This document shows, in pieces, positions 24,295-54,424 of a stretch of DNA of 54,424 nt. Each line of letters opens with the position of its first letter. The stretch's first letter is position 1. Source of the stretch: an uncultured Lachnospiraceae bacterium. Its GTDB lineage: Bacteria; Bacillota; Clostridia; Lachnospirales; Lachnospiraceae. A program made the translations under genes and the position numbers. The stretch is taken from the NCBI GenBank assembly GCA_947384285.1, contig CANDGI010000020.1, forward strand, positions 1-54,424, given 5' to 3'. A model generated the notes under the pieces. That model had not been told where the DNA came from, ran no database searches, and saw only the letters and a list, made by a program, of their open reading frames with translations.

Positions 24295-24831
24295 CTAATC
24301 TTCCTCCATCAAGGCGCCGATGGCCTGCATCACCTCTTCCACAGGGCTGCCGTCCATAAAAAGCAGCAGGCTGCTGCACAAAAGCTCATACGCCTGCATC
24401 AGCATCCTAAGCACATACACACATTTCTCCCATTCCTTTTCACAATCCAGATCGGTCAGCATGGTATAGCGGATTCCGATTCTCTTGTCTTTCTCCCCTT
24501 CATCCATAAAAAGCATCTGGCCTATCGGCAGCATATGGTTCAATGCGTCAATCAAACATAAAACCCTCTCTTTTGCCATGGCCTTTGGCTCCTCCTCCAT
24601 CATCTCCCCTATCACAAGCTGCCCGTAAAACTGCAGGATGCTTCCCATATCCGGCACCTCCACGAAATTACAGGTGATGTCAATGCTCAGCTCCTCGCCG
24701 ATTTTAAGGGGAATCATCAAAGAATCCATGGGAAGCTCCCTGGTTTCCTCCAAAAACATGCTGGAAACCCCCATGCGCTTTAAATATTCCTCCAGTGTTT
24801 TTAACCCTTCCCGCAGCTTTCTTTTTTCCAT
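24295..24831 (-). CDS. Small acidic protein at the end of the CIS operon, possibly chaperone-like
   Basis: A 178-residue acidic protein of unrecognised family. The alternating strand and helix pattern (LPMDSLMIPLKIGEELSIDI near residue 33, GSILQFYGQLVIGE near 62, then helices ERVLCLIDALNHMLPIGQM and EKEWEKCVYVLRMLMQAYELL) resembles YbjN/type III chaperone-like alpha-beta proteins, but that is a fold impression, not a match. It begins 12 bases after the AAA ATPase gene with its own GGAAGG site, so it is co-transcribed with the CIS genes. A cargo chaperone is the working guess. Confidence 0.6.
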   Translation of the reverse strand: MEKRKLREGLKTLEEYLKRMGVSSMFLEETRELPMDSLMIPLKIGEELSIDITCNFVEVPDMGSILQFYGQLVIGEMMEEEPKAMAKERVLCLIDALNHMLPIGQMLFMDEGEKDKRIGIRYTMLTDLDCEKEWEKCVYVLRMLMQAYELLCSSLLLFMDGSPVEEVMQAIGALMEED

Positions 24832-24843
24832 TTTCCTTCCTCC

Positions 24844-27066
24844 TTAACTTTTATACATATGATACTCTTTTAGCTCTTCTTTTCCAAGGGTTTTCCCGGC
24901 TTTTTGGTATTCCTGCTGGAGGGAAGCCATAATATGCTCCATCCCCACCACCTGCCCTTTGGACGCCGCCAAAAAAGAAGCGTTGATTGCAATATTTTTG
25001 ATGGACGCTCCCGACAGTTCGAAATTGAAGGCCAGATAGTCCATGTCAATATCCTCACCCAAAGGCATCTGGACGGGAAAAACCTTTTCCCAAAGCTTAA
25101 GCCTCTGCTCCTTTTGGGGAAGCGCAAAAGAAATCATGTATTTTATCCGCCGTTTGTAGGCGTCGTCAAAATTCTGCATCAGGTTCGTAGCCAGAATCGT
25201 GATGCCGTCATACTCTTCCATCTTCTGGAGAAGATACGCCGTCTGGGCGTTGGCGCTGATATCCCTGGCGTCTGTCACATTGACGCGCTTTCCAAACAGC
25301 GCGTCCGCCTCATCAAAAAACAGGATGCTCCTGCTCTTTTTCCCTTCCTCAAAAATCTCTTTTATGTTTTTCTGGGTTTCTCCGATGTATTTTGACAAAA
25401 CGCTGGAAAGGTCTACCCGGTAAAGCTCCAGATTCAGCTGGTTTGCAATCACCTGGGCCGCCATAGTCTTCCCCGTCCCCGGAGGCCCGAAGAACAGCAT
25501 GGACACGCCGCGCCCATAAGCCATTTTCTGCCGAAATCCCCACTCCTCATAGACGCGATACCGAAATGTGACATGGCTGCAGGCCTGCTTTAACAGTTCT
25601 TTCTGATTATCCTGCAGGATCAGATCTTCCCAGGTATATGCGGCGTTTACCCTGTCAGCCCACTGGCCCAGGCGGTGGGAAATCTTCTGCTGGCATACCT
25701 CATAGATTTGGATGCTCCCAATCCTTCCTCCGCAGGCGTCGTCTGCCTTCTGCTTTACTTCCTTTGCCGCTTCTTTCATCATCCCCGGAGAAAATTCAAA
25801 TTGCGCTGCCAGCATTTCAAAGGAAATGGCGTCCGCCAGATCCTTGCCGGACAAAAATTCCTTCCAAAGGCTGATCCGCTGTTCCATATTGGGAGGAAGC
25901 ATCTCAAACTGCTCAATCTGGTAATCTTCCAGCAGCGTTTCGTCCGGCTGTCCAAACATTTCCGTTACGACAAACACAACCGAAAAGAACAGCCCGGCTT
26001 TTCCCAAAATTTCCAAAATTGTTCCGTTATCCCAGACGCCCCCTTTTTCAAGCGCTTCCCAGTGATAGCAGCATAGGCAGGACTGGCTTAACGCCGCCCT
26101 TACCACCGCATCCTTGATTCGTTCCTTTTTCTGTTCTCCCTGGAGCTTTTGGATTTCCTCTATATCCAAAAACAGCGCCGTGCACCCCTGGGCTCTGGCC
26201 GCCATCTTCACCTGTCGCTTCCTTCCGCTGCCTTTCGCTCCCTTTAACACAAACAGCCTTTTTCCTTCTGGAGATTCCTCCCTTAGATACTGGCAGATCC
26301 GCCGTTCCACCTGAGGATTTACGCTGATTCCCACTTCCTTCCCAGGGGAATTCCCTCTGGTCTGCGCTTCCTCCCCACAGAAGTTTTCTCTGGCTTGCGC
26401 TTCCTCCCCCTGGGGGACATACAGATAGTATTCTATCTTCCGTTCCAGCAAATCCGATTCATAAAAAAACAGGTATTCCGCCAGATCCCGGCGCAGGCGC
26501 AGCTTCCAGGAGGGGCCGCTTCCAGCCCCGTCCCCTCTTTTTTGGAACAGGCATTGAAGAAGCTCCCTGCGCCGTTCCACCTGGTGCAAAAGCTCTTTCT
26601 GCCGTATAGAATCCATGGTAAACATTTTCATGCAAAGGTCAAGGGTTGGGGCGCCCAGGTTCCTGTCATCCTGGAGATAGCAGAACATCCGCTCAAATTC
26701 CCGGTTCAGCTCCCTGGAAGCGGCAAGGCAGACGCAATACGCTTCAAATTCCGTCAGCCGGAATCTGCATATCATATATTCCAGGGGAATCATAACCCCT
26801 TCCTTCAGCTGCCTTCTGGCACTCTCATGAAAGAGATTCCATTCCTCCCGCAGAGTTCTTCTCTCCTGTCCATACTTCTCCCAATCCATGGACACAAATG
26901 CATCCTCCAGGATATTCTGCAGCTCCTCCTTGAATATCCTTGTCTGATAGATATGGCGGATTCCGCCGTCCTCCCTGGTTCTTACCGCATACCGCACATA
27001 CAAATCCAATTCTTTTTTCACCAAAGAAAGCATTGTCTCCAGGTATTGTGACGCTTCCAAATCCAC
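24844..27066 (-). CDS. AAA+ ATPase of contractile injection system (Afp15/Pvc15-like)
   Basis: The single AAA ATPase found in nearly all extracellular-type CIS loci, where it is thought to aid assembly or cargo loading. The C-terminal AAA module is complete: FFGPPGTGKTMAAQV (Walker A, about residues 526-540), a pore-type SKYIGETQKNI, ILFFDEADALFGKR (Walker B, about 578), TILATNLMQNFDDAYKRRI (sensor 1 and arginine finger), and GASIKNIAINA (sensor 2). A second, degenerate ATPase-like region precedes it (KGAKGSGRKRQVKMAAR near 275). The start is placed at GTG 27066, with AGGAGG 5 bases upstream, rather than the TTG at 27084. Confidence 0.93.
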   Translation of the reverse strand: MDLEASQYLETMLSLVKKELDLYVRYAVRTREDGGIRHIYQTRIFKEELQNILEDAFVSMDWEKYGQERRTLREEWNLFHESARRQLKEGVMIPLEYMICRFRLTEFEAYCVCLAASRELNREFERMFCYLQDDRNLGAPTLDLCMKMFTMDSIRQKELLHQVERRRELLQCLFQKRGDGAGSGPSWKLRLRRDLAEYLFFYESDLLERKIEYYLYVPQGEEAQARENFCGEEAQTRGNSPGKEVGISVNPQVERRICQYLREESPEGKRLFVLKGAKGSGRKRQVKMAARAQGCTALFLDIEEIQKLQGEQKKERIKDAVVRAALSQSCLCCYHWEALEKGGVWDNGTILEILGKAGLFFSVVFVVTEMFGQPDETLLEDYQIEQFEMLPPNMEQRISLWKEFLSGKDLADAISFEMLAAQFEFSPGMMKEAAKEVKQKADDACGGRIGSIQIYEVCQQKISHRLGQWADRVNAAYTWEDLILQDNQKELLKQACSHVTFRYRVYEEWGFRQKMAYGRGVSMLFFGPPGTGKTMAAQVIANQLNLELYRVDLSSVLSKYIGETQKNIKEIFEEGKKSRSILFFDEADALFGKRVNVTDARDISANAQTAYLLQKMEEYDGITILATNLMQNFDDAYKRRIKYMISFALPQKEQRLKLWEKVFPVQMPLGEDIDMDYLAFNFELSGASIKNIAINASFLAASKGQVVGMEHIMASLQQEYQKAGKTLGKEELKEYHMYKS

Positions 27067-27122
27067 AGGCACCTCCTTTTTCAATGAAATGCCTTCGCTC
27101 CAGCGGCATTCCAGCCTTCCTC

Positions 27123-27737
27123 CTATACCAATCCAGAAGCCAGGATATTCTTAAAATCTTCCAGCTTCCTGGCTTTTACCAGCTGTCCCTGGGGAACGCC
27201 CATCATCTGCATCATCCCCTCCGTGCTGGCGTACAGCTGCAAGGTAGCGCCGGCCTTCCTCTTTAAGTCGCTTTTTATTTCATCGTCTTCTTTTGTAATG
27301 GCTGGATTGTCCGATGGCGGTAGATTAAACTCATTTGCCAAAGCTTCCTCCAGATATTTCAGGCCGTGCTCATCCTTGCCCAATGTTTCTATTTTTTCAT
27401 ACAGCCGTTCCTTTACCGCCTCGCTCCTGTCATCCTTCCCATTCGTCAGCCTGCTGCCCAGCCGCACCGTGGAAGACCCAATGGTGGTAAGGTTGGCAGC
27501 CATTCCCATGGCAAGGGACGCAGTGCCCGCCACCTGGCTGGCTTTCCTCCAATCATCGCTCCTGGTTCTTGCCGCTCCCTGGGAGGCGACAAATTTTCCG
27601 CCGGATATGATGCTGGTGCAGAGCCCTACGGCGCAATTTACCGCGGAAGCCGCCATCTCCGCTTCGTCGTGCTTTTGTTTCCTAATCCTTTTTGACAGCC
27701 CTATGTATACGATCAAATCGTCTTTTTTCTTTTCCAT
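27123..27737 (-). CDS. Unknown 204-residue protein with two hydrophobic Gly/Ala helices; CIS cargo candidate
   Basis: Unrecognised protein encoded directly before the AAA ATPase. It has a basic N-terminus (RIRKQKHDE), two hydrophobic small-residue stretches (about residues 26-52, MAASAVNCAVGLCTSIISGG; about 65-95, VAGTASLAMGMAANLTTIG) and a charged C-terminal half. Such glycine-rich amphipathic helices are seen in membrane-active toxins and in tail-lumen cargo, but also in structural proteins. The large gene at 32142 has a hydrophobic middle of similar character. Before the AT-rich island was inserted the two were probably adjacent. Function is inference only. Confidence 0.6.
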   Translation of the reverse strand: MEKKKDDLIVYIGLSKRIRKQKHDEAEMAASAVNCAVGLCTSIISGGKFVASQGAARTRSDDWRKASQVAGTASLAMGMAANLTTIGSSTVRLGSRLTNGKDDRSEAVKERLYEKIETLGKDEHGLKYLEEALANEFNLPPSDNPAITKEDDEIKSDLKRKAGATLQLYASTEGMMQMMGVPQGQLVKARKLEDFKNILASGLV

Positions 27738-27826
27738 GCTGGAATCGCCTGCTCCATCCCTTGGATGTTCCTGTGTAGCCGCTCAAAATTCTTGTCAAAG
27801 TTTCTCAAAATAATTGACAAAAAAGA

Positions 27827-29116: not shown

Positions 29117-29120
29117 ATTT

Positions 29121-30037: not shown

Positions 30038-30049
30038 ATTAATTACCTT

Positions 30050-32141: not shown

Positions 32142-33545
32142 TTAGGTTACATCCTGCAATGCTTCCAAGGCCCGCTGGGCCTTTGCCAAACGCACGTCTG
32201 CCTTTTGCGCGTCTTTTTTCTTCTGAGCCGCCATGGCTTTGGCGGCTGCCTTGGCATCCGGGGCTGCCCCCTGGCCGTTTCCTGCCGCTGCCTTCTGCCC
32301 CTCTCCCTCGCCCTGCTTTGTGCGCCCTTCCGGAGCCTCCTCCTCTTTCCCCTGGCTTCCCTCAGACCCTTCCTGGCTGTCTGCCTTGTCCTCAAGGGCT
32401 TCCTCGGTGGACTCGGAGCTCTCCACAACCTCTTCCAGGCTGTCTGTCCCCTCCTCCGAAGCTTCCTCTGCAAGCACGTCTCCTTCCAGGCTTTGCTGCC
32501 CTCTTTTTCCTAAAATCTCATGGACGGCCTCTTTGGCCTTTGGCCATAGCTGGGCTTTCCTCATCTCCAAAAGATTAATCCCTTTCCATCCCTTTGCCAA
32601 TCCCCGGGAGACATTCAACAGCGAAATGGCCTGGCTGGTTCCACTGGCTAAGAACATCCAGTTGGAAACCTTATTTAAAATAGGGAGATTCACATGGGCA
32701 TAGGAAGAAATTGTTTTGGCGATAGCCACCGCCTTGGCAAAGGCCAAGGCAAAATCCCCCAGCATCCCTATGCCCAAAAAGGCATTTTCAAACCATGCCT
32801 GCCCGGACTTTTTAAACTGAAGCTTCTTTAATTTGGTGTAAAAATTGCGGATGGAAGAGATCAGCGTGACAAAATTTGTCACAAGGCCCACCGCCTTGTA
32901 CACCGACTGGCTTTTTGCGTTCTTGTCAAAGGTGGAGAGCAGGCCGGTAAATCCGGTTACCCCGGCATTTATGTCCGCCACCGTCGCCCATTTGGAGGAA
33001 TTTACCGCCCTGGAGAAGATACCGGACGCCATGGGATTCGACTTATTTTCCTTTAGCAGCTTAGATACCAGAACGGCCTGGTAGAGGCTTCCCTCCCGCC
33101 TTTCCCCCACTTTCTTTTTCAGCTCACTGGCATTCTCATCCCCGACGGAGACGGATTCATACCCTCCCCTGTCCACTGGGAGCTTGTCAAAATATTTGTC
33201 CCCTTCCCCATCCTCTCCCTTTTTTTTCATCCCTGTTCCACTTCTCGTCTCCTGCACCATGGTCAGGAGATTCTGGTTCACCTCATCCACCGCCTGGCTT
33301 TCCCCAGGTGCTTCCTCCTGTGCTCCTTGGGCATCCTCCTGCCTTGCCGCTTCCTGCTGCTGCATGCTTCCCGTCTCTTCCTGCACCGCCAGAGCCGCAT
33401 CCTGTATGGGCGCGGCGGCCTGTTCCCCCTCCTGGGCCGCATCCTCCATACTCTGCTCTAACGTCTCTTCTATGCGCTGATCCGTCCCCGTTCCTGTTTC
33501 CACCCGTGTATCATCCTTTTTAATTTCCTTTGGGATACCGCCCAT
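32142..33545 (-). CDS. Large Glu/Gln/Ala-rich CIS-linked protein with hydrophobic centre
   Basis: A 467-residue protein of unrecognised family. Residues 1-110 are disordered and rich in Glu, Gln, Ala and Thr. Residues about 145-330 form a helical, partly hydrophobic body (VYKAVGLVTNFVTLISSIRNF, AFLGIGMLGDFALAFAKAVAIA, WMFLASGTSQAISLL). The last 120 residues are again disordered and acidic, ending in an Ala/Lys-rich helix (AKAAAKAMAAQKKKDAQKAD). The start at 33545 has GGAGGTG upstream. It is 19 bases after the receptor gene. A membrane-inserting cargo or an inner scaffold are both possible. Confidence 0.6.
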   Translation of the reverse strand: MGGIPKEIKKDDTRVETGTGTDQRIEETLEQSMEDAAQEGEQAAAPIQDAALAVQEETGSMQQQEAARQEDAQGAQEEAPGESQAVDEVNQNLLTMVQETRSGTGMKKKGEDGEGDKYFDKLPVDRGGYESVSVGDENASELKKKVGERREGSLYQAVLVSKLLKENKSNPMASGIFSRAVNSSKWATVADINAGVTGFTGLLSTFDKNAKSQSVYKAVGLVTNFVTLISSIRNFYTKLKKLQFKKSGQAWFENAFLGIGMLGDFALAFAKAVAIAKTISSYAHVNLPILNKVSNWMFLASGTSQAISLLNVSRGLAKGWKGINLLEMRKAQLWPKAKEAVHEILGKRGQQSLEGDVLAEEASEEGTDSLEEVVESSESTEEALEDKADSQEGSEGSQGKEEEAPEGRTKQGEGEGQKAAAGNGQGAAPDAKAAAKAMAAQKKKDAQKADVRLAKAQRALEALQDVT

Positions 33546-33564
33546 ACGTTCACCTCCATTTTTC

Positions 33565-36261: not shown

Positions 36262-36996
36262 TCAGGAAAGCTTGCACTGGTTCTCTTTCTGCCCGAAAAT
36301 TTTTATCTCCCCAAAGCCCCCCTCCCCACTGGAATAGCAGAGGGTATATTCTTGTTCCTTCAGCTGTCCAAAAAGCAGGAAAAACGTTCCATCTTCCCCT
36401 GCGGGACATTCCCAGGCCGGATAGATTGCCGCGTTCTTTTTCCGGTAATCCCCCGTTAAGGGAGCGCATAAGCGATGGGCCTCCCCCTCCCCGTCTTCTG
36501 GATACACCTGGAAATATTCTCCCGTTTTCTTTCCCTTGTCCCAGATAAACCAGTTTCTTCTGCCGCCCTGGCCTTTTTTCAAAAAGATGGCAATCTGGTC
36601 CTGGCCTTTCTGGTAATCCCACAGCAGCCTGCACTCCTGGCTTTCTTCCTTTATATGGCACCAAAACGCGGCGTATGGGGATGTGCTTCCCCGCACCACG
36701 GTACAGCCTTCCCTGCGCGGATATCCCTTGGAAGGGTAAAGATATACTTCCTCCACCCTTCCGCCCCCGTCTGCGGCAAGGAAAAGCTTCCTGGGCTGGT
36801 AGGCGGGAGAAGTGATTTCCACTTGAAATCCCCCCTGCCCGGTATGGAAAAACAGGCAGTACCCTCCTGGCTTTCTCAAATAATGCCCGCCCTGGCCAAC
36901 TTGTATCTGTAAGCCATTTGCCACCGTTTCCTCCGAAAACGCATCCTTAAAAAGAACTGCTTTGGATAAACGGATATCAATTCTCTGTCGCGCCAC
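36262..36996 (-). CDS. CIS-linked beta-rich protein of unknown function
   Basis: A 244-residue protein with a GTG start at 36996. Its first 90 residues (RIDIRLSKAVLFKDAFSEET ... PRKLFLAADGGGRVEEVYLYPSKGYPR) read like a carboxypeptidase-regulatory/transthyretin-type beta sandwich. A second part follows from TVVRGSTSPYAAFWCHIKEE, again beta-rich with aromatic residues. Similar two-domain proteins occur next to the Pvc16-like gene in other CIS loci. It may sit at the distal end of the tail or bind sugar or lipid. No enzyme motif was found. Confidence 0.6.
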   Translation of the reverse strand: MARQRIDIRLSKAVLFKDAFSEETVANGLQIQVGQGGHYLRKPGGYCLFFHTGQGGFQVEITSPAYQPRKLFLAADGGGRVEEVYLYPSKGYPRREGCTVVRGSTSPYAAFWCHIKEESQECRLLWDYQKGQDQIAIFLKKGQGGRRNWFIWDKGKKTGEYFQVYPEDGEGEAHRLCAPLTGDYRKKNAAIYPAWECPAGEDGTFFLLFGQLKEQEYTLCYSSGEGGFGEIKIFGQKENQCKLS

Positions 36997-43928: not shown

Positions 43929-46051
43929 CTCTCATCCGCCGTATAAATGCAGAATTCCAAGTCCTTTAAAAACGCCAATCCGTTGGGCGGCAGGCCGATA
44001 TCGCCGTTTGCCAGATACCAGCATCCCTTCCCACGGGCATTTACCGACAAGGATTTTACCTGGCCAACGCACGGCAGCGTATCTAAAATCCCGTACAGCA
44101 CGCTCAAATGCACCTGCTTTCCGATGTCCCATGTCCGTTCATCCAAATATTCCTTTACGGCTTCCTCCATCTTTTGCTCCGCATCCAAAAACTGGGGCTT
44201 TACCAGAACCTCACCGTAGACGTCCACCGCGATATATTCTGGATCTAAAAGGCGTATCCTGGTTCCCAGCATCTTTTGGCTCTGAAGAACTCTTGTTAAA
44301 TTCTGCTTATATTTCCTGCTCAACCCTTTATGCTGTCCGGGAAAACAGAAGGGCTGCACTACAATGGAAATCTCATTCTCTGAAACGTTCTTATCCCGTT
44401 CTTTCCATTCTCTGGGGGAAACCACACGGCTGTTTAGAATCAAAAGGCCTGGCGCCTTCCTTGCCAATGCTTCATAATCCCCATAGGTGATTCCTCGCCG
44501 AATCTCCTTTAATTCTCCGCAAAACCGTTCAAAGCACTGTGAAAGCTCCTCTTCATCCCGTCCGCCGCTGAACGCCCTGCTCTGCCTTACCAAAAGCTCC
44601 GGGTGCGGCCCGCATTCTTGAATCTGGCCTGCTTTGATATTTCCAGCGCTGCCAAGGCTCTGCCTCAGCCGGATAATCTTAATCTCTCCGCTGGGAGCCA
44701 GCCCCCGTTCACAATCGCCAAACAGAAGCTTTTCCCTTTCCGTATCCAGGATGTAGACGGCATCCTCCGGGGTGCATCCGTCAAAATCTTCTGCCTTTTG
44801 GTACCTGACATAGCAGCCTTCCTCCTTGTCATAGGCAAGAATTTCAAAATCATCATAGAGGATGTTGGAGACATTCAGGTCAAATTCCTGATTGGCAAAC
44901 TCATCCCCCCATCCCACAATCCTCTTTTCTTCCATTTCCCTTTCAAATACCGCCAGCAGGCAGCGGCGCTTCCCCTCTGCCCAGGCAGGCCGGGCAAACC
45001 AAAACCTGGTATCTCCTTCTTCCGTAGCCTCCCGGCTCTGCTCCTTTAGCAGGTGAAAGCCCCCTTCCCCTTCCAGATACAGCTCCACTCTGCCGGATTT
45101 TGCCAGATATAAGCTGCTCTTTAGGGAAAAACTCTCTTCTTCCTGGGAAAATTCCAGGGCAGCCTCTTCATAATCGCAGGCCGTATACTGCTGCCTGGCC
45201 TCCATTTCATTCAAATAAATATTCTGTATCAAGGGCGCCACATCCAGGTCGTTCTCCAACAAAGCCACACGAATCTGATAGGCTTTCAGCTGCGGCTCCT
45301 GAACCATTTCCTCCGCCGTATGGAACCGTATGGCGCCGCTCTGCAAAAAGCCATATGTCCAGTCAAAGTCCACCGCCAGCTCTTTCCAGCCCCCGGCGGC
45401 ATAATATTCCCATTTCAGCTTTGCCAGGGGGAGGAACCCTTCGTCGGCAGGATTCCTGGACACAGCGTACTCGGTGCAGATATCAAAATAAATATCCGTT
45501 TTCCACAGAGGGTTCAAAGGGCCGTCAAGGATAAAGCAGCACTGGTTCCCTTCCTTTGGCACTTCTCCAAAGGGATACAGCTTCATCTGCTTTGCCGCGT
45601 CATTTTCAATATGGTAATAGCCTTCTATCCCCTCTTTCTGGGCCATGCAGGCTCCAATGAGGTGGACCGGATGCAGCCACTCCTTTTCCACAAGCTCAAA
45701 GGGAATATCCTCCGCAAAAAACCGTGTGCCCTTTAAGAGCGGCGTCCGTCTCTGCGCCCCGGAAAAACCCAGCCCCCAAAAGGGCTCCGCCCCCACCGCG
45801 CCCACAGCCGGGCGCATACGATAGGGCCTCACCCCCAACAGCTTTAAATATTTTCGGCGCTTGGCCTGGCTTGGCTGGCTTAAATGGTACTGCTGCACCT
45901 CTGTCAGCCAAGAAAACAGCTGGATCAGGGTAATCCCTGGATCAGACGCATTGTAGCTGGTCCATTCCGGGTACTCCCTTGGGATATGGAATATCGCTTC
46001 TTTTTCAATTTCTCCATAGGACCTGCCGTCCAGCTTCCAATCATAAAGCAT
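43925..46051 (-). CDS. Putative baseplate assembly protein, J/gp6-like, smaller copy
   Basis: A 708-residue wedge protein of the TIGR02243/gp6 class. Its N-terminus has the family start ASDPGITLIQLFSWLTEVQQYHLSQPS (about residues 35-60), which fits the D-x-G-x-x-L-I-x-L-x-A/S-W signature of CIS baseplate proteins. The C-terminal part (GDYEALARKAPGLLILNSRVV, about 505; then IDVYGEVLVKPQFLDAEQKM, about 615) is the J core that joins neighbouring wedges. The start at 46051 has GAGGAA upstream. Two such genes in a row are usual in eCIS loci (Afp11 and Afp12 types). Confidence 0.88.
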   Translation of the reverse strand: MLYDWKLDGRSYGEIEKEAIFHIPREYPEWTSYNASDPGITLIQLFSWLTEVQQYHLSQPSQAKRRKYLKLLGVRPYRMRPAVGAVGAEPFWGLGFSGAQRRTPLLKGTRFFAEDIPFELVEKEWLHPVHLIGACMAQKEGIEGYYHIENDAAKQMKLYPFGEVPKEGNQCCFILDGPLNPLWKTDIYFDICTEYAVSRNPADEGFLPLAKLKWEYYAAGGWKELAVDFDWTYGFLQSGAIRFHTAEEMVQEPQLKAYQIRVALLENDLDVAPLIQNIYLNEMEARQQYTACDYEEAALEFSQEEESFSLKSSLYLAKSGRVELYLEGEGGFHLLKEQSREATEEGDTRFWFARPAWAEGKRRCLLAVFEREMEEKRIVGWGDEFANQEFDLNVSNILYDDFEILAYDKEEGCYVRYQKAEDFDGCTPEDAVYILDTEREKLLFGDCERGLAPSGEIKIIRLRQSLGSAGNIKAGQIQECGPHPELLVRQSRAFSGGRDEEELSQCFERFCGELKEIRRGITYGDYEALARKAPGLLILNSRVVSPREWKERDKNVSENEISIVVQPFCFPGQHKGLSRKYKQNLTRVLQSQKMLGTRIRLLDPEYIAVDVYGEVLVKPQFLDAEQKMEEAVKEYLDERTWDIGKQVHLSVLYGILDTLPCVGQVKSLSVNARGKGCWYLANGDIGLPPNGLAFLKDLEFCIYTADER

Positions 46052-46118: not shown

Positions 46119-49040
46119 CTACACCTCTATCTGTATCTCATGGTTTCCGCTCTCCGGCAGCAGATAGCGGGGAAGCTCTTCTTCCCCCGCTTCCACCTGA
46201 TCTGTGCGCCCCTTTAAAAATTTGCGCAAAGACAGCTGGCGGATATGCCTGATTCCCTCCACACGCTTTAGGGCATGCATCACCTGGTTCTTGCCTGGAA
46301 CCGTCCCAATCTCCCATCCTTCTCCATAAAAATTTCCTTCCAGAGGATGAAGAAACCGTTCCAGCTCCTTTGCAGCCCTTTTTCTCACCGAAATCGCCTC
46401 TTTCTCGTCCATCAGCGCAACGGTAACCTTCACATCCAGCCGGAGCATATCCGGCCTTACAATGGAAAACCTTCCAGTATCCAGAATATTTCCATCCATC
46501 TTTGCGGAAATAAATTCAAGAATCTGCATCCTTGCTTTCTCAAAGCTGTAAGGGTTTTCCTTATATTCTTCCGGCAGTATCACCAAGGTTACGTTTCCCG
46601 GCTGTTTCCTGCCATTTTGATCATGCCCCGAAAAACATTTTACTTTGCAAAGATTCCGAGCCGCTTCCCGTGCCATATCCTCATAATCCCTTGCGGAAAC
46701 GCAGCGGTAACCATGGCGCAGAATCTGCGCGTTCCTGTCCACCGCCTCCAACACCGTTTCCCTGGGGACTCCGCCCCCGGAAGCCACCGGGTTATAGCTG
46801 CTGTTGATAAATCCCACCGTCTGCTCCAAGCGGTTAATGTCCCCTTCCTTCAAGTTTCCCTTCTCGCCCTGGCAATGTTGATACCGGACACGCACCCTAA
46901 TATCCTCTGTCTCGTCAAAGCAGGCTTGATCCATATATTTTGGAAATGTGATAAGCCCCGTCTGGCGGTGGATGGAAAATTCTTTCCGTTCCCCGCTTTG
47001 GCTGTCCAAGCATTCCGCTTCTTCCCATTGCTCCCAGGCTGTCCCAAGCATTCCTTGGCGGTAATCCCATTTCTTGAATACCCATATTGCAATCTCTGCA
47101 ATATCCCCATAAGGGAGCTGTATGGTCTTTTCCTGTCCGTAAAGGGGAATCTGGTATTCCTCCTCCAAGGTTTCAACCCCCAGGATGCGGGCGCAGTTGG
47201 GACAAATCTTCTCTACTCTGGGACACCATTCCACCCTGTTTTTCTGGTGGTATCCATCCTCCTGATCCAGTATCCGCACCCAATACAGTTCCCGCCCAAA
47301 CAAATTTTCACGGCGCATGTCATAATTTCCCGACCAAGATATCATCCCCGTGTGATGGAACCGCTTTGTCCCATCAATAGGGTGCATCTCCTTCCATCCT
47401 CCTTCCCCCAGATATTCCCATTTTACCATGGGCATATCCTGGCGCATGGAGTCCTCCATCACAAACAGGAATTTCAGAGGCGCTCCCATAGGCGGCTGCA
47501 GAAATCCCAGATAACAGGCTGTTTTTTTATCTGGATTCCTCTGGCAGAAAGAAACGCGGTATCCCTCCCTTGCCATTTCTTTTTCTGAAATTTCTTCCCT
47601 TTGCAGATGGTTCCATTTTATGATGGCACGGGGAGTCAGAGGCTCCCTGCCATAGTCGTAAGAAAGCAATACCCTTCCAGCCAAAGGCACAATATAAGCC
47701 CCCCGGGTCTTATAAGCATTTCCTACCCGCAGAACCCTGGCACGTATGGCGTAGGTCTCCGCGGAACCCACCAACGCCCGCTGGATATCCCAAGGGCATA
47801 CAAACTCCATCCGCATCCGCGCTCCCCGAACATCCTCCTTTGGGGTAAACAGCTTTCCGTAAGCGCTCCCTCCTGGCAGCCTTGCCCACCCGTATCCATT
47901 GAAATATTCCCACAACACCTCCTGAATGGTAATGTCGTATTCTTTTTCCGGTATGAAATCCCTCTTTTTCATCACCGTCTTCCACCGTATCATTTCTTCC
48001 TGCTCTGCTTCCAGAGGAAGCTTTACAAAATCCAGGTCAAACTCTATCCGGATCATGGCTCCAGCTTTCCCCAGCACTTCCTCACTGGCAATGTAACATT
48101 CATCATAGAGAGACGGGGTTCTGCCAAATACAAAAAAATCTTCCATCTCCTGATCCATCCCGTTTCCATAGATGAAATCCGGCCCTATTCCCTGGCTTTT
48201 TATGGAAAGGGCGGGGGCGGAAAAATAAATCTGGGAAAACAGCTCTGGGTCTGAAATATCAGCCTGTATCACATACATGGATTGATATTCCTCCTTTACC
48301 GCTATCCCCTCCTCTCCCCCTGCAAGTTCAAAGAAAACAGCGCCATCCTCCGCTTTTCCATGGATGGGCCGAAACCCTTCCTTTGTCCCGTAGGAAAAAC
48401 AGATTTTCCCCTGCTCCACAGCCTGCTGCCAATCCTTTCCGTCCCCTGTGGCAGATTCCAGTTGAAAAGAAAACACAGCCTGTGCCCGGGACATAATTTC
48501 CAAGCCTTTTTCAAAGCAGAACACAATCTTATGCCGCTGCAGGTTAGGCCCCTTCCCCTGAAAGAGAAGAAAGGACATAGGCTCTTCCTGGTCTTTTTGG
48601 TATATCTGGTAAATGCCATCCTCCTGGGGGCGGCTCAAAAAGATGCGCTCCAGCTCCATCTGGCGCACGAACGCCTCCTCCTGGGTCTCGAATACCACCA
48701 TCTCCCCCTGGCCCTGGGATAAAAGCTTTGTCCCAGGCAAAACCTCCTCTTCCCCCTCATACCCCTGAGGCAGCGCAAAGGCAGCAAACCCCTCCGCCGG
48801 CCTGGCCGGAAGCATCTTTGCATGGAGCTCGTCAAAAAAGGAAAGCATATCCCCTGCCACAGTCAAGTTAAAACGTTTTACCGTATCGCACATCATATCT
48901 GCAAACAGAGAAGCCAGAGCCGTCCCGGCATCTGGATTTTTTGTATCGTAACGCCACTCTGGCACATACTGTTTCGCACATGTTTTCATATATTCAATGA
49001 TTTCTTCCCTTGTCCATCTTTCCTTTTTTGGAATATGCAT
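46119..49040 (-). CDS. Putative baseplate assembly protein, J/gp6-like, larger copy
   Basis: The larger wedge protein, 973 residues. The N-terminus reads KNPDAGTALASLFADMMCDTVKRFNLT (about residues 29-55), parallel to the start of the smaller copy. The C-terminal third has the J core: YRCVSARDYEDMAREAARNLCKVKCFSG (about 775) and RLDVKVTVALMDEKEAISVRKRAAKELERFLHPLEG (about 870). Start 49040 (ATG) is preferred because GAGGAGG-like bases lie upstream; an earlier in-frame ATG at 49139 would overlap the hairpin after gp25 and lacks a ribosome site. Confidence 0.88.
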   Translation of the reverse strand: MHIPKKERWTREEIIEYMKTCAKQYVPEWRYDTKNPDAGTALASLFADMMCDTVKRFNLTVAGDMLSFFDELHAKMLPARPAEGFAAFALPQGYEGEEEVLPGTKLLSQGQGEMVVFETQEEAFVRQMELERIFLSRPQEDGIYQIYQKDQEEPMSFLLFQGKGPNLQRHKIVFCFEKGLEIMSRAQAVFSFQLESATGDGKDWQQAVEQGKICFSYGTKEGFRPIHGKAEDGAVFFELAGGEEGIAVKEEYQSMYVIQADISDPELFSQIYFSAPALSIKSQGIGPDFIYGNGMDQEMEDFFVFGRTPSLYDECYIASEEVLGKAGAMIRIEFDLDFVKLPLEAEQEEMIRWKTVMKKRDFIPEKEYDITIQEVLWEYFNGYGWARLPGGSAYGKLFTPKEDVRGARMRMEFVCPWDIQRALVGSAETYAIRARVLRVGNAYKTRGAYIVPLAGRVLLSYDYGREPLTPRAIIKWNHLQREEISEKEMAREGYRVSFCQRNPDKKTACYLGFLQPPMGAPLKFLFVMEDSMRQDMPMVKWEYLGEGGWKEMHPIDGTKRFHHTGMISWSGNYDMRRENLFGRELYWVRILDQEDGYHQKNRVEWCPRVEKICPNCARILGVETLEEEYQIPLYGQEKTIQLPYGDIAEIAIWVFKKWDYRQGMLGTAWEQWEEAECLDSQSGERKEFSIHRQTGLITFPKYMDQACFDETEDIRVRVRYQHCQGEKGNLKEGDINRLEQTVGFINSSYNPVASGGGVPRETVLEAVDRNAQILRHGYRCVSARDYEDMAREAARNLCKVKCFSGHDQNGRKQPGNVTLVILPEEYKENPYSFEKARMQILEFISAKMDGNILDTGRFSIVRPDMLRLDVKVTVALMDEKEAISVRKRAAKELERFLHPLEGNFYGEGWEIGTVPGKNQVMHALKRVEGIRHIRQLSLRKFLKGRTDQVEAGEEELPRYLLPESGNHEIQIEV

Positions 49041-49069
49041 CCTGCCTGCCTCCTCTCTTCCTATACTTG

Positions 49070-49135
49070 GAAACTGCCGCAGAATAAAAGGTACAAATTG
49101 CCCATAAGTTGTGCATTTTATTTGGCGGCAGTTTC
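49070..49135 (-). other. Long hairpin between gp25 and the large baseplate gene
   Basis: GAAACTGCCGC (49070-49080) and GCGGCAGTTTC (49125-49135) are exact complements. The interior also pairs imperfectly (AATAAAAGGTAC against GTGCATTTTATT). It sits immediately after the gp25 stop in an otherwise tightly packed operon. No T-run follows, so it may set relative expression of upstream and downstream genes by RNA processing or partial termination. Confidence 0.6.
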
Positions 49136-49549
49136 TCACTCCCCTTCATTGATATAAAAAGGATATACCATGTTATAGGGGTTATTGGTAGCGCGGACCA
49201 TGTAGCTGATAGAGACAAGAAGGCATCCCTGTTCCGCCCGTTCGTCGCTGACCGCGGCTTCTACCTTGCTGATTCTTGGCTCCCAACGCACCAGGGCGCG
49301 TTCCACCTCATTTTTCATGGCATACAGGGTGGTGTAATCTACAGTCTCAAAAGAATACTCCCAAATCCTGCACCCAAACTCTGGCTCCATCATCCGTTCC
49401 CCCCTGCGGGTGCCCAGGATAATCCGCACCGACTCCTGAATATTTTCTTCGCTGGAGGCCATCTTGATTCGTCCGGTGGCGCCGTCTACGGCAACCGGGA
49501 ATTTCCACCCTGATCCAAGAAAGGATCTTACGTTTTTTTCATGTTCCAT
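49136..49549 (-). CDS. Baseplate wedge protein gp25/GpW family
   Basis: The short, highly conserved wedge protein, 137 residues, that helps start sheath polymerisation. The family core is present: ASSEENIQESVRIILGTRRGERMMEPEFGCRIWEYSFE (about residues 30-68), with the EPEFG motif common to gp25/lysozyme-like baseplate proteins, and a closing beta part MVRATNNPYNMVYPFYI. GGAG lies 8 bases before the ATG. It lies between the spike gene and the large J-type gene, the normal CIS order. Confidence 0.93.
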   Translation of the reverse strand: MEHEKNVRSFLGSGWKFPVAVDGATGRIKMASSEENIQESVRIILGTRRGERMMEPEFGCRIWEYSFETVDYTTLYAMKNEVERALVRWEPRISKVEAAVSDERAEQGCLLVSISYMVRATNNPYNMVYPFYINEGE

Positions 49550-49576: not shown

Positions 49577-50356
49577 TTAGTTCACCTTTACCATGCTTCC
49601 TTTGAGCTGGGCAGCCCCGGTAGCTTCCAGCCCCAGCTGCCCGTTTGCTTTCACCTTTACGCTGGTTCCGCTTAACTCTGCAGTCTGTCCCTTCATCTTT
49701 AGGCTCTGGGTTCCTTCCAGCTGGAGGGTCCCAGCCCCAATCTTTACCGTATTGCTGTCTGCCGACAGCACCTCCTTGCTCCCCACCTTCAGCTTAATGC
49801 CGCTTTTGGCAATCACCGTGACTTCACCGCCATCGCCATCCACCATTACGCAGTTCTCTTTCCCTTTGTCCTGCAAGGTGATGCTCTTTTTTCCATCGTC
49901 TATGGTAATCTCCAATTCCTTTGGCGTCGTAACCGTAATTTTTTCTTTGTCCTTCTCATCGGAAAAGGAAATCTTATTGCCCGCCTTTGTCATAATGGTC
50001 TTGGTATGATTTTCCTCCCCCGGCACCCCTTCCGGCTGGGCGTCCGTTTCATTCCACAAACATCCCAAAACCACAGGCATATTCAAATTTCCCTGGATGA
50101 ATCCAACCACGACCTCCGTCCCTATCTCTGGCAGCCAGTAATTGCCGTAGCCTTTTCCGCCATAGGGGGTTAAAACCCGTACCCAGTCCGAGGTCTTATG
50201 GTCTTTTTCCCCCAAAAGGTACTCCACCTTGACCATGCCTTTGTGCTTTTCGTCCCATATCTCCTTCACCACCCCGTTCAAAAGCCCGGGCGCTGTCACG
50301 GAAGGGAGGGTATCTTGTTCCTTTTTCACTTCCAGCAATTCATCGTAAAAATTCAC
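49577..50356 (-). CDS. Central spike protein (gpV/VgrG-like OB fold)
   Basis: A 259-residue spike with the gp5-type OB domain at about residues 22-105 (LLNGVVKEIWDEKHKGMVKVEYLLG ... WVRVLTPYGGKGYGNYWLPEIGTEVVVGFIQGN). The C-terminal half is repetitive beta structure, with short strands such as TVIAKSGIKLKVGSKEV and QSLKMKGQTAELSGTSVKVK, likely a trimeric needle. The GTG start overlaps the hub stop by 4 bases. No enzymatic domain is fused, so it looks like a plain puncturing device. Confidence 0.93.
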   Translation of the reverse strand: MNFYDELLEVKKEQDTLPSVTAPGLLNGVVKEIWDEKHKGMVKVEYLLGEKDHKTSDWVRVLTPYGGKGYGNYWLPEIGTEVVVGFIQGNLNMPVVLGCLWNETDAQPEGVPGEENHTKTIMTKAGNKISFSDEKDKEKITVTTPKELEITIDDGKKSITLQDKGKENCVMVDGDGGEVTVIAKSGIKLKVGSKEVLSADSNTVKIGAGTLQLEGTQSLKMKGQTAELSGTSVKVKANGQLGLEATGAAQLKGSMVKVN

Positions 50357-51411
50357 CGTTTCCAGCCTCCCGCTTCAAAATACGTGTGATATCCGTCCCC
50401 GCTGTAAACATGCCTTACCTCTTCCAGGCTGTAGGTGCCGTCTATCAATTTTCCATCTCCGCCTTTTATCTTTACAAAGCCCCCTGGCAAAAGCTCCGGG
50501 ATTCCAATACAGCTCCCGCTGGCCTGCCTGGCTTTCTTTTTTTCCTTTTCCGCTTTGTACCCGGCAATCTTCTTGGCATTTTCGTTATCCTGGATGTCTG
50601 CGGCCATCTCCGTTATTTCGCTCTGCACCAGCGATTTCTGGCTATCGTCCGCTTTCACTGCAACCTCTGCCGTCACTTCCTCTTTTTTCTTCAAATCCTG
50701 CCCTAAAATTTTCACTACCGTGTCCTGGAAGGACGCCCGTCTTTGAAAGGAGATGACATCCCCCGGCCATTCCAGCTCCACCGTGTCAAACAACTCTTCA
50801 GACAATTTTTTGAAATACAAAACCCCTCCATGTACAAAAAACTCCCGCTCCCCTTTTTTGCAGAGTTCCTCCGTGATAAATTTATAATCGTTTCCATTTT
50901 GTATGATGCATTCCATATTTTGGGGGGTATCGTCCACGCTGGAGCTTTTATAGGCGGCCTTATATTTCTTTGCCACCTCCAAAAAAGCCTCCGAATAGCT
51001 GGTGACCGTATGGGTGATATTGCTTTTCTTACTCCCCATCATAATCTTTCTTACGTCCACCGCCGTCACATGGACCTGGGGAGATTCCGACAGCTCATAG
51101 TTAATCTCTTCCACATATCCGTAAAACAGGGAGGAGCATTTTGACCCGTAGCCCATTTCCACCTCCACCAGCTCCCCCAAAATAAAATCCGAGCTGACGT
51201 CCTGGCAGAAACGGCGGTTTTTAAGGTCATATACGTTGGTAAGCTTGATGCTGGCGGCGCTTGCAGCCTCCTTGGACAAGGTCACTTCCACAGAATCTAT
51301 GACATATTCACTGTTTCCAGAAACATCCTGTCCAGCCACTTTTACTTTCACTGCTGGCACAAGGAATTCTTTATATTTTGAAGCCAGGCTGGACATAGAC
51401 ACTGACGCCAT
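50353..51411 (-). CDS. Hub protein, phage late control D (gpD/VgrG N-terminal) family
   Basis: The 352-residue hub that joins tube to spike. Features include the early beta segment VPAVKVKVAGQDVSGNSEYVIDSVEVTLS (about residues 16-44), LGELVEVEMGYGSKCSSLFYGYVEEINYEL (about 81-110) and the central MECIIQNGNDYKFITEELCKKGEREFFVHGGVLYF (about 167-202). It ends with GGFVKIKGGDGKLIDGTYSLEEVRHVYSGDGYHTYFE (about 310-347), the typical late OB strand. GGGAGGGG lies before the ATG at 51411. It directly precedes and overlaps the spike gene, as in Afp8-like loci, where hub and spike may be fused; here they are separate. Confidence 0.92.
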   Translation of the reverse strand: MASVSMSSLASKYKEFLVPAVKVKVAGQDVSGNSEYVIDSVEVTLSKEAASAASIKLTNVYDLKNRRFCQDVSSDFILGELVEVEMGYGSKCSSLFYGYVEEINYELSESPQVHVTAVDVRKIMMGSKKSNITHTVTSYSEAFLEVAKKYKAAYKSSSVDDTPQNMECIIQNGNDYKFITEELCKKGEREFFVHGGVLYFKKLSEELFDTVELEWPGDVISFQRRASFQDTVVKILGQDLKKKEEVTAEVAVKADDSQKSLVQSEITEMAADIQDNENAKKIAGYKAEKEKKKARQASGSCIGIPELLPGGFVKIKGGDGKLIDGTYSLEEVRHVYSGDGYHTYFEAGGWKR

Positions 51412-51465
51412 AAATTTCCCCTCCCTTTTCTTGGCATTATAGCCAGCGACAATTATTTCTGTCGT

Positions 51466-52146
51466 TTACGATAAAGCAGGAAGCTTCACCACCTGCCCTG
51501 CCTTGATATCCAATGGATTCATAATCCCGTTTTCCTTGGCGATTACCTTCCACATGTCCGGGTCTCCATACTCCGCAAAGGCAAGATCCCACAGCTGGGT
51601 TCCTTCCCGGATGGTGCGGTATTTGGTGCGGTCCGGGGACTCAAAGGGCGACTTGCGCCGGTTTTCCTTCAGGGACAATAATGATTTAAAGGTCAGATTT
51701 ACTTTTGCCCGCACAGGCATCCCGCTTTCCGCAAACATGGTGTACGTGTGGTTTACCTTCGTGATGATTCCCTCAAAATTCAAGGATCCCCATTGAAAGG
51801 TCACTTTCGGGGGACGATGAAGGCTTCCGTCAATGGATGTCGTCTCTGCAATCTCCCTGGTAATCTGGGAAACATCCGTAGAGTGATCCGACCTTCCCAC
51901 CCCTGGGATGGACACTGGGAGAAGGGGCGGCGCAGGGGGCACATACGTATCCAGAAAAAGGCTAAGGCTCAATTCCGTTGCTTCCCCGGAAATATATTGT
52001 GTAATCGGCCCGTCCAATCCTGGGACTTTTTTTTCTGAGTAGGAAGCGCCGTCGGTAAGCTGATATTCGGAAGGGTTAAACAGCACGTCAATATTCTTGC
52101 TTCCCGTTTCTTGTTCAATAATCAGCTTCGCCTTTGTCAAGCCCAT
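51466..52146 (-). CDS. CIS tube-adaptor protein with C-terminal LysM (Afp7-like)
   Basis: A 226-residue protein. The N-terminal domain KAKLIIEQETGSKNIDVLFNPSEYQLTDGASY (about residues 5-36), followed by LSLSLFLDTYVPP, fits the CIS tube-adaptor family, which links tube to hub. The C-terminal 50 residues are a LysM motif (RTIREGTQLWDLAFAEYGDPDMWKVIAKENGIMNPLDIKAGQVV). In CIS particles this LysM packs within the baseplate and does not necessarily bind cell wall. GGAGGGATGGAAG precedes the ATG. Confidence 0.9.
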   Translation of the reverse strand: MGLTKAKLIIEQETGSKNIDVLFNPSEYQLTDGASYSEKKVPGLDGPITQYISGEATELSLSLFLDTYVPPAPPLLPVSIPGVGRSDHSTDVSQITREIAETTSIDGSLHRPPKVTFQWGSLNFEGIITKVNHTYTMFAESGMPVRAKVNLTFKSLLSLKENRRKSPFESPDRTKYRTIREGTQLWDLAFAEYGDPDMWKVIAKENGIMNPLDIKAGQVVKLPALS

Positions 52147-52229
52147 CTTCCATCCCTCCTGTCGCCTGCAGTCTTTTTTCCCACGCCTTGATGCTGCTTT
52201 CCATCAAGCATCTCATACTGGTAACCGTC

Positions 52230-54424
52230 TTAAAGCAGCCCCCGGCGCAGCCGTTCCATATGCAGCTCTTCGTGAAGCTGCTTTTTCACTTTTTCTGTAA
52301 TATCCCTCACATTTTCCTTGGGTATCCCATGGCTTTCCGTCTGTTTCAGCTTCTGCTCCACTTCTTCCACCCGCACTTCCAGCTGGCGGTGCAAAGACTC
52401 CATCCGGGCGGCTTCCTCCTGGCGCTGCAGTTCTTCCTTTTTCCTCTGGGTGGAGGAGGTATTTTCTGGAAATGCATACTTCAACATTGGGGATTGCAGA
52501 TTTGGCTGCACTTGTAACTTTCGCTGCACTTGTAAATTTTGCTGCATCTGCGTTGGCAAGGCGTTTGGATCTGCTGGCCATTCCGATGGTTTTTCCATAC
52601 TCTGCGCCCATTCCAACGGATTTTCTGTGCCTTGCTCCCACTTCGGCGGATTTTCTGTGCCTTGCCCCCATTCCGATGGTTTTTCCCGCTGCATCCTTCT
52701 GCGCTCTCTCAAAGAAAGGGGTTCTTCGCCAAAAAAATTCTCTCTTTTCTGCAATCGTTCTCTCTCTTCATACTGCTTTATTTCTTTTTCCAACCCAGCC
52801 ATTTTCCCCCGGGCTTTTTGTATGTCTGCCTGATACTGTTTTCGCCGTTTCTCCTCATAGAGCGGCGCCAGATACAACAGCCTTGCATAATGCTCTTCTA
52901 TTTTCCGCTCTTTTTCCGGCTCTGCCTCCTCCGATGGCCTTTGAAATGCAGCCCTCTGTGAAAATACCCCTTCTTCCGGTTTTCCATTCTCCCAAGCTGG
53001 CTCTAAGGACTGCGGATGGGCTGCGGGCATATGCTGGGCGTATATGAGCTTGCCAGATAACGTTTCTACCTTCTCCGGCGGCTGCAGATTGGCTGTGGCC
53101 ATTCGCTGGCCGTATGCGTGCTTGCTAGACAACGTTTCTACCTTCTCCGGCGGCTGATGTAAATGGCCTGGCTGGCTGCCAGTTGGCAAACGGCTTGGCT
53201 CTATGGGATTTTCCCCTGCCTTCCATGCTTCCTCTGGCTTGCGCAAAATCATATGGGAAAGACGGCTGACAAGCCTTCCATATCCTTCCTCCCCATCCGC
53301 TTCTGCCTTCGCAAGCAATCTGCGGATGGCACTGTTCGAAAGCTGCTCTTCCCCAAAGGAAATCTGGATTCCGCTTCCCTGAAGCTGGCGGTTTATCTGC
53401 ATCATCAGCTGCTGCAGCCGTACACGTTCCTTGGAACGCTCAATTTCCTGGCGAATATTTTCCATAGATGGACTGGCCGGCTGGCTGATAAATGGATCTT
53501 CTTCCATAAATGCATTGGGCGATTGCTCCTTTGCGGGGTGCTCTTTCTCAGGTAAGGATTTCCTCTCCTTTTTCATCTCCTGGGTGGAATGCGTTAAAAG
53601 AATATCCCGCCATTCCCTGAACTCCTCTTCCTCTTCTATTAGAGACTGCTCCGAAATCATATGGGAAAAATGGCTGGCAAGCCTTTCATATCCTTTCTCC
53701 CCGTCTGCTTCCGCTTCTGTTCTTGAACACCATCTGCGGATGGCACTGTTCGAAAGCTGCTCTTCCTCACTTGACGCTAAAACCATATCCGCCAATATCT
53801 GTACCATTTTCTGATACGCTTTCTCTCCTCCCTGCTCCAACTTAATAAGCGCCTGTACAAGGGAGGGCTCTAAAAGCATCTCCTTTTCATACCGTAAATG
53901 GATGCCGCTTTTTTCCAGCTGTCCATTTAAGTTGGAAAGCAATTTCTGTAACAGAAGGTAAATTTCAGCCTGTCTTTTCTGCTGCTTCCCAGCATTCTCC
54001 GTCCGCAAATAAATTCCTAGGGAACCATTCTCCAAATACGCCTTCTGGCTTCCTTCGTACTCCCTCTGCTGATGCGCCTTCCTGCTTCTTTCGAGTTCAC
54101 TTTCCAGATGCACTCTCACGCTTTCCTCGGGTTTCCTCTCCTGATGCGCCCTCCTGCTTCCTTCGGGTCCACCCTCCAAATGCGCCTTCTGGCTTCCCTC
54201 GGGTTCACTCTCCAAATACACCCTCATGCTTTCCTCAGATCCGCTCTCCAAATGTACCTTCCTGCTTCCCTCGGGTTCACTCTCCAAATACACCCTTATG
54301 CTTTCCTCAGGTCCGCTCTCCAAATGCACCTTCCTGCTTCCCTCGGGTTCACTCTCCAAATACACCCTCATGCTTTCCTCAGGTCCGCTCTCCAAATGCA
54401 CCTTCCTGCTTCCCTCGGGTTCAC
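52230..54424 (-). CDS. Long repeat-rich, coiled-coil CIS protein, 5' end beyond the window
   Basis: The frame is still open at the right edge, so the N-terminus is missing; at least 731 residues are visible. The visible start is a run of 12-residue repeats of the type VHLESGPEESMR/VYLESEPEGSRK. Two related helical segments follow, each with a QLSNSAIRR motif and a GYxRLxSxxSHMI ending (about 200-240 and 350-395), indicating internal duplication. Then come Gln/Pro-rich linkers and a charged coiled coil, ending LHEELHMERLRRGLL. It precedes the LysM gene by 83 bases, where a sheath/tube-side protein is expected. Function is unknown; a tape-measure or inner-tube filler are options. Confidence 0.7.
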   Translation of the reverse strand, partial: EPEGSRKVHLESGPEESMRVYLESEPEGSRKVHLESGPEESIRVYLESEPEGSRKVHLESGSEESMRVYLESEPEGSQKAHLEGGPEGSRRAHQERKPEESVRVHLESELERSRKAHQQREYEGSQKAYLENGSLGIYLRTENAGKQQKRQAEIYLLLQKLLSNLNGQLEKSGIHLRYEKEMLLEPSLVQALIKLEQGGEKAYQKMVQILADMVLASSEEEQLSNSAIRRWCSRTEAEADGEKGYERLASHFSHMISEQSLIEEEEEFREWRDILLTHSTQEMKKERKSLPEKEHPAKEQSPNAFMEEDPFISQPASPSMENIRQEIERSKERVRLQQLMMQINRQLQGSGIQISFGEEQLSNSAIRRLLAKAEADGEEGYGRLVSRLSHMILRKPEEAWKAGENPIEPSRLPTGSQPGHLHQPPEKVETLSSKHAYGQRMATANLQPPEKVETLSGKLIYAQHMPAAHPQSLEPAWENGKPEEGVFSQRAAFQRPSEEAEPEKERKIEEHYARLLYLAPLYEEKRRKQYQADIQKARGKMAGLEKEIKQYEERERLQKRENFFGEEPLSLRERRRMQREKPSEWGQGTENPPKWEQGTENPLEWAQSMEKPSEWPADPNALPTQMQQNLQVQRKLQVQPNLQSPMLKYAFPENTSSTQRKKEELQRQEEAARMESLHRQLEVRVEEVEQKLKQTESHGIPKENVRDITEKVKKQLHEELHMERLRRGLL
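54042..54424. repeat. 36-bp coding tandem repeat
   Basis: At least ten 36-base units encode 12-residue repeats in the CIS protein; the array continues past the window edge. Units alternate between a VHLESGPEES form and a VYLESEPEGS form, so the real period is 72 bases for the three outermost pairs, and units diverge toward the inner end. Confidence 0.92.

Follow-up and report, generated by a model that had tools for sequence, protein, structure and literature searches.

A Lachnospiraceae contractile injection system gene cluster with a conserved set of predicted pseudokinase, MORN-repeat and degenerate-cyclase membrane proteins

Here we describe a gene cluster for a contractile injection system (CIS) in a 54,424 nt stretch of DNA from an uncultured Lachnospiraceae bacterium. 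The stretch, referred to as the window, is a whole contig (C20 of genome G000), and the source genome comprises 3.2 Mb on 74 contigs (83% complete). Because the nearest named relatives of this genome are mostly Lachnospiraceae, we take the host to be monoderm. The CIS genes form a run on the minus strand, from 54.4 down to 24.3 kb of the window. Based on Pfam searches, the run encodes a CIS_tube protein, hub, spike, gp25, two Baseplate_J wedges, tail protein I, a protein here called p585, a pseudokinase, a MORN-repeat protein, a Pvc16_N cap, p244, a HAMP receptor and an AAA ATPase. Intergenic spacing is −14 to 124 nt from position 54422 down to p478. The first-pass annotation had described a co-oriented run of gp25, hub, spike, two J-type wedges, tail protein I, DUF4255 terminator and AAA ATPase, all of which were confirmed by Pfam. 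It had also placed three membrane genes in this run (pseudokinase, MORN protein and HAMP/cyclase-like receptor), and these are present. The features, listed in the direction of transcription, are:

52230..54422, minus: C-terminal part of a large repeat-rich protein that probably continues on contig C30 (L003:2-2077; 111-bp overlap in a tandem repeat); no Pfam family over cut-off
51466..52146, minus: CIS tube / tail adaptor protein (CIS_tube, PF19266, E 4.9e-33)
50353..51411, minus: baseplate hub (YQBQ 4.4e-09; Phage_GPD 2.2e-4, below cut-off; PHROG tail protein and baseplate hub)
49577..50356, minus: spike (Phage_base_V, E 1.3e-23)
49136..49549, minus: gp25 baseplate wedge/sheath initiator (E 1.9e-25)
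46119..49139, minus: baseplate J-type wedge 1 (Baseplate_J 5e-06; TIGR02243 6.9e-30, below cut-off)
43925..46051, minus: baseplate J-type wedge 2 (Baseplate_J 4e-06; TIGR02243 8.6e-41, below cut-off)
42744..43928, minus: tail protein I, CIS12-like (Tail_P2_I 1.1e-4; TIGR02242 8.3e-21, over cut-off; CIS12_fam 1.3e-38, below cut-off)
40950..42707, minus: p585, 585 aa, with a CIS13-type anchor, a macroglobulin-like domain and a C-terminal Big_2 domain; proposed baseplate-to-membrane adaptor
40085..40945, minus: membrane pseudokinase with a kinase fold, one predicted transmembrane segment (TM) and a short conserved tail, F-x-x-I-G-T
37733..40072, minus: membrane MORN-repeat protein (PF02493, E 2.8e-26; SdrD_B 1.4e-4, below cut-off)
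37021..37608, minus: cap/terminator (Pvc16_N, the DUF4255 of the first-pass annotation, E 6.3e-23)
36262..36996, minus: p244, conserved cluster protein (in 50/60 loci with enough flank)
33565..36189, minus: sensor with four TMs predicted by hydropathy, HAMP (E 2.6e-11), a degenerate class III cyclase domain (CyaB, 6e-08 with profile) and a C-terminal extension
32142..33578, minus: p478, N-terminal part of a candidate cargo gene that is a single gene in relatives
27123..27737, minus: p204, C-terminal portion of that candidate cargo gene, on the far side of a Mu-like fragment
24844..27084, minus: AAA+ ATPase with winged-helix domain (E 1.8e-29)
24295..24831, minus: small protein ending the run, 12 nt after the AAA gene; no Pfam family; one relative, in L150

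The right end of the window overlaps the start of contig C30 within a tandem repeat (111 bp, 1 mismatch), suggesting that the two contigs join. This fits with a single 1447-aa gene found between tubeB and CIS_tube in genome G016. Encoded on the same strand of C30 are two gp19 tubes, the sheath, a second AAA ATPase and BTAD and LuxR/MalT regulators, followed by galT and galK. The first-pass annotation had proposed extending the locus to the right in search of sheath and tubes, and both were found there. Provided that the contigs join, the phage-tail machinery, from the sheath and tubes through the hub, spike, gp25, J wedges and tail protein I to the cap and AAA ATPase, is co-oriented in one run. 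In themselves, these parts are ordinary for a CIS. The protein with coding tandem repeats that would span the junction (window 52230-54422 plus L003:2-2077) lies between the second tube and CIS_tube, and its length varies widely in relatives. The two regulators, one of BTAD type and one of LuxR/MalT type, are large and lie directly upstream of the CIS run (L003:8578-14117).

The genes for the three predicted membrane proteins recur in CIS loci of other genomes, and we therefore reject the possibility that they are accidental neighbors. Their absence from related CIS loci had been named in the first-pass annotation as grounds against its interpretation, and the result was the reverse. We collected the best 80 of 557 p585 relatives in GTDB genomes, a set whose counts lean to close relatives, and scored six-frame profile matches among loci with enough flanking DNA. 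The pseudokinase was found in 78/78 loci, the MORN protein in 65/65 and the receptor with the degenerate cyclase domain (pseudocyclase) in 52/56 by a strict profile (53/56 with an earlier full profile). The corresponding counts are 57/61 for Pvc16, 50/60 for p244 and 53/58 for a PAAR-like protein. Thus, pseudokinase and MORN protein are found wherever this set is readable, and the sensor is usual. In single-sequence phmmer searches (E 1e-3, best label only), neither of the two flanking genes that served as informal controls, a Na+/H+ exchanger and gpT, labelled genes in the other stretches.

Two surveys, neither of which used the three membrane proteins for selection, link the pseudokinase to CIS more widely. 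Among 299 genomes of the same family, 24 have CIS_tube, and a pseudokinase match (E <= 2.6e-9) occurs in 23 of these 24 and in none of the 275 CIS_tube-negative genomes, where no match is better than 1.2e-8 (in a 618-aa frame). The frames in the 23 genomes are 280–313 aa long, except in G106 (823) and G278 (888), for which a gene caller gives 285 and 286 aa. Most adjoin p585; in G176 and G277 the match is on a contig other than that of the CIS_tube gene. For the weakest calls, frame length was additional evidence, as was proximity to p585 in G086, G085 and G149. In G138, the only exception, the CIS_tube match is itself weak and contains two stops. In a survey of 398 genomes of the phylum, 17 have CIS_tube (one below cut-off), and the pseudokinase (E <= 4.3e-19) is present in 7/17 of these versus 0/381 others (best other 8.6e-7). 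Genomes G000 and G180 are in both surveys. Fisher p values are 1.7e-33 for the family and 6.5e-11 for the phylum, which are not strict probabilities given that the genomes are related. The pseudocyclase is present in the stretches of 20 of the 24 CIS_tube-positive family genomes, the exceptions being G085, G104, G138 and G176, where coverage differs.

The identity of p585 is central to the interpretation of the locus. The first-pass annotation reported no visible tail fiber, which is incorrect as stated, as p585 is encoded by the gene after tail protein I and has a CIS13-type anchor domain. Residues 9–154 match CIS13_fam with E 4.8e-24, although at 85 bits versus a model cut-off of 370. Beyond the anchor, p585 contains a macroglobulin-like domain and, at its C-terminus, a Big_2 domain. 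A tail fiber just outside the window had been named in the first-pass annotation as grounds against its interpretation; the gene in the fiber position lies inside the window and behaves like an invariant adaptor, unlike a variable fiber. The length of p585 is nearly constant (569–592 aa in 25 loci) and its tip is conserved (mean pairwise identity of 0.44 over the C-terminal block, residues 481–585, in 65 sequences), whereas a variable receptor-binding tip would be expected of the fiber of a released, extracellular CIS (eCIS). In all 96 distinct loci with both genes (8 genomes present twice among 104 loci are counted once), the pseudokinase frame starts −152 to +431 nt after p585, in 95 cases within 400 nt. 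Tail protein I is 18–31 kb from p585 in 8 of these loci, and 3 show no tail protein I in the stretch. Since the pair is fixed even where tail protein I is distant, gene order ties p585 to the pseudokinase rather than to the wedge gene. Phylum genomes point the same way: pseudokinase and MORN protein are present in 4/4 loci with full-length p585, and none of the three membrane proteins is in the stretches read in 4/4 CIS loci where the p585 anchor alone occurs on a different body, with no comparable pseudokinase genome-wide. Thus, it is the body of p585 that is coupled to the pseudokinase.

Two gene orders recur. Layout A, as in the window, is tail protein I, p585, pseudokinase, MORN protein, Pvc16, p244, (PAAR) and sensor. 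In layout B a block of p585, pseudokinase, (sensor), MORN protein and Pvc16 lies upstream of the sheath. The window genome encodes a second CIS of layout B (G000:C2, ~55–95 kb; L093, L094), where CIS_tube occurs twice alongside p585, pseudokinase and MORN protein and no pseudocyclase receptor was found. Variants of p585 were also seen. In G483 (L222-L223), G395 (L228-L229) and G678 (L230-L231), p585-like anchors are fused to PTI-rich repeat bodies and are followed by an apparent glycosyltransferase gene (by eye). In G444 (L220-L221) and G604 (L232), p585 lacks Big_2 and is followed by two genes whose products look, by eye, like a substrate-binding protein and a transporter with 12 TMs.

The kinase and cyclase domains are degenerate at active-site residues. 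The HRD catalytic Asp is present in 0/60 pseudokinases and the DFG Asp in 4/60 (columns placed by hand). The pseudocyclase metal-binding Asp pair is present in 0/19 sequences, with a single Asp in 1 and 2 of 19 at columns set by hand from the CyaB alignment. The pseudokinase tail beyond the TM is only some 20–30 residues long. One TM is predicted near the N-terminus of the MORN protein in 69/70 relatives, followed by the MORN repeats and then an Ig-like C-terminal region.

From these observations we lean towards a CIS that operates inside the cell that makes it, at that cell's cytoplasmic membrane, docked and licensed by a sensor. This was the suggestion of the first-pass annotation, and it remains the best reading, with docking and control of firing inferred from genomic coupling and from protein folds. 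In this mechanism the baseplate would bear p585 as a near-invariant adaptor, retaining a fiber anchor domain, instead of a variable target-binding fiber. The single-pass pseudokinase, encoded directly after p585, would be the cytosolic docking receptor. The outer part of the dock would be supplied by the MORN protein, whose repeats, joined to a single TM, are presumed to lie on the outer side. Most loci also encode the HAMP receptor with its dead cyclase domain, which would pass an envelope signal by shape change and license docking or firing. The tube may be directed outward into a neighbor, or firing may kill the producer. A bolder version, which we consider possible but doubtful, is that these proteins make up a docking station like that of the type VI secretion system (T6SS), assembled from unrelated parts for one-membrane, thick-walled cells: a pseudokinase would serve as the inner receptor, the MORN protein would rise as a tower into the wall or across it, a receptor with a dead cyclase would license firing by changing shape, and the fiber gene would have been recast as a baseplate-to-membrane adaptor. 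The number of MORN repeats differs between species and could match wall thickness.

Several observations weigh against a docked, sensor-licensed CIS. The p585 anchor domain is of a kind taken as a tail-fiber mark in PMC12923769, and its Big_2 domain could bind a target. Outside the nearest relative, pseudokinase identity to the window copy is low (15–33%), and at the weak end of the family survey the E-value margin is thin (2.6e-9 in G086 versus 1.2e-8 in a CIS-negative genome). The pseudokinase is missing from 10/17 CIS_tube-positive phylum genomes; G444 has MORN protein and pseudocyclase with a p585 without Big_2 and no pseudokinase, and G604, also with p585 without Big_2, has none of the three in its stretch. 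The pseudocyclase is missing in L146, L150, L196 and L198, and is absent from the G085 stretch and from the second CIS of the window genome. HAMP-pseudocyclase receptors of 946 aa (L113, G200) and 916 aa (L114, G125) occur in CIS_tube-negative genomes, in stretches with no CIS structural gene. The CyaB alignment behind the pseudocyclase columns is loose, calls of TM and sidedness rest on hydropathy and charge, and the charge of the MORN protein differs little between sides (mean +2.1 versus +1.5).

Given the p585 anchor domain, a released eCIS has to be considered, in which p585, with its macroglobulin and Ig domains, would bind a conserved target as a short fiber of CIS13/eBAP type, and the membrane proteins would control assembly, release or protection of the producer. 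The sub-cut-off CIS13_fam match at the N-terminus, the position after Tail_P2_I in layout A and a make-up of macroglobulin-like and Big_2 domains resembling the 'C3b/BIG' eBAP3 fiber of PMC12923769 all favor this. The eBAP fibers, as described in that paper, share with p585 this position, an N-terminal anchor and these domains; p585 differs in its nearly invariant length and tip and in its tie to the membrane proteins. The conserved tip and constant length, unlike the bodies in loci without the three membrane proteins, and the association with the pseudokinase even where p585 is parted from tail protein I, lower the case for an ordinary variable fiber. In addition, no lysis gene was recognized among the genes scanned on either side of the cluster (left, the window from 17.5 kb; right, C30 1–19.7 kb, to galT/galK), the first 17.5 kb of the window, C30 beyond 20 kb and small open reading frames being outside the scan; lysis genes just outside the window were what the first-pass annotation had said would count against its reading. 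We regard a released eCIS as unlikely, and retain it as the leading alternative.

We consider quite improbable a self-directed death device like that of CisA, in which envelope stress recruits cytoplasmic particles to the membrane and firing occurs through the membrane of the producer, the membrane module being a checkpoint and not a channel across the wall. It has the closest tested biology found, in the monoderm Streptomyces coelicolor (CIS-Sc with CisA; PMC12237407), which is also alike in a proposed sensor/checkpoint. The HAMP receptor in most loci and the candidate cargo, for which a hydrophobic segment is predicted in the window and in some relatives, are consistent with such a device. 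As for CisA, a membrane protein is encoded downstream of the baseplate genes (tail protein I, p585, pseudokinase, MORN protein; TM by hydropathy). CisA is described as mostly unstructured on its cytosolic side, with an outer domain resembling solute-binding proteins, and no fiber protein was found in that system (PMC12237407), as opposed to three membrane proteins and a CIS13-type p585 here. No such solute-binding domain was recognized in the three proteins by Pfam scans, the CisA sequence itself not being compared, and a long, presumably extracytoplasmic MORN array seems unneeded for self-killing. Finally, that the three proteins are a signaling cassette that regulates CIS transcription without touching the particle is highly improbable, despite the HAMP-type receptor and the BTAD and LuxR/MalT type regulators upstream on C30, given degenerate kinase and cyclase active sites, no DNA-binding domain in Pfam scans of the three proteins, their genes inside the structural run and the coupling to the body of a baseplate protein.

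A docked CIS would not be the first of its kind, as membrane-linked systems are described for CisA in Streptomyces (PMC12237407), the thylakoid CIS (tCIS; PMC8894136) and archaeal T6SS (PMC11566945). The tCIS of Anabaena is anchored in thylakoids by Cis12/Cis13 extensions, and the available portion of that paper mentions no pseudokinase or MORN protein (PMC8894136). Strong homology to the tCIS crown (Cis19), through a crown-type N-terminal domain, was rejected, as a match to chain AB of 7b5h, the presumed crown protein, fell from E 0.0015 to 0.82 with a larger alignment. The haloarchaeal T6SS is alike in a CIS bound to the cytoplasmic membrane and in a conserved putative membrane anchor that correlates with one CIS group, but the anchor differs in having six predicted TMs and a cytoplasmic domain of ~150 residues; the Halogeometricum cluster is without a Cis19 homologue (PMC11566945). 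The T6SS membrane families (TssJLM complex) were unmatched in the cluster genes scanned, at Pfam sensitivity. Another parallel is EssB/YukC of type VIIb secretion, a non-catalytic, single-pass pseudokinase scaffold in Firmicutes with a cytoplasmic kinase fold (PMC12599244), from which the window pseudokinase differs in the shortness of its tail beyond the TM. Membership of that family was rejected: 0/60 pseudokinases match the YukC family (Pfam, E 0.01) and it is not among the 50 fold matches listed, so that the likeness is in working only.

In a literature set that leaves out the bulk of subscription articles and bioRxiv preprints, we found no paper joining 'contractile injection' with 'pseudokinase', or 'contractile injection system' with 'MORN repeat'. 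One paper, a Geobacter transcriptome study, contains both 'contractile injection' and 'HAMP domain', and a search for Lachnospiraceae with CIS returned one paper, with the CIS term in its reference list only. Membrane-linked CIS are already known as a kind, and the set of pseudokinase, MORN protein and pseudocyclase was not found in print. The locus bears on how a contractile machine without a classical fiber finds the membrane and times firing, a question for which CisA is the monoderm example found. It also provides a warning that an anchor domain alone is no proof of a released, fiber-bearing eCIS. The module is conserved, defined by its genes and built of apparently non-enzymatic signaling folds. 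Because it occurs in Petralouisia muris (L125) and in Sporofaciens musculi (L132), named strains of Lachnospiraceae that we take to be cultured mouse-gut isolates, docking and licensing are directly testable.

The window copy shows signs of damage. A Mu-like phage fragment lies at the AAA end of the run (within 24.3–32.1 kb) and splits one cluster gene: p478 aligns to the N-terminal part, and p204 to the C-terminal part, of what is a single gene between sensor and AAA ATPase in L121 (561 aa) and, in longer form, in other near relatives. The fragment (29206–31392) encodes a virion structural protein, the gpT major head protein, a shortened I protease and a Mor activator, with T before I. A role for these capsid genes as part of the CIS was rejected given the resemblance of gpT, protease and Mor to a Mu-type fragment. 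Either the fragment is real or the contig is misassembled there. The PAAR-like gene usual beside the sensor is missing from the window (six-frame profile search), and a lone PAAR-like (spike tip) copy is found at G000:C34:13507-13887, away from any CIS gene. The window copy may have lost its cargo gene; its structural genes are open. Outside the cluster, on the minus strand, a lysine riboswitch (11310–11485) and a GA-cis RNA (11136–11216) lie close together and are the only Rfam matches at gathering scores in the window.

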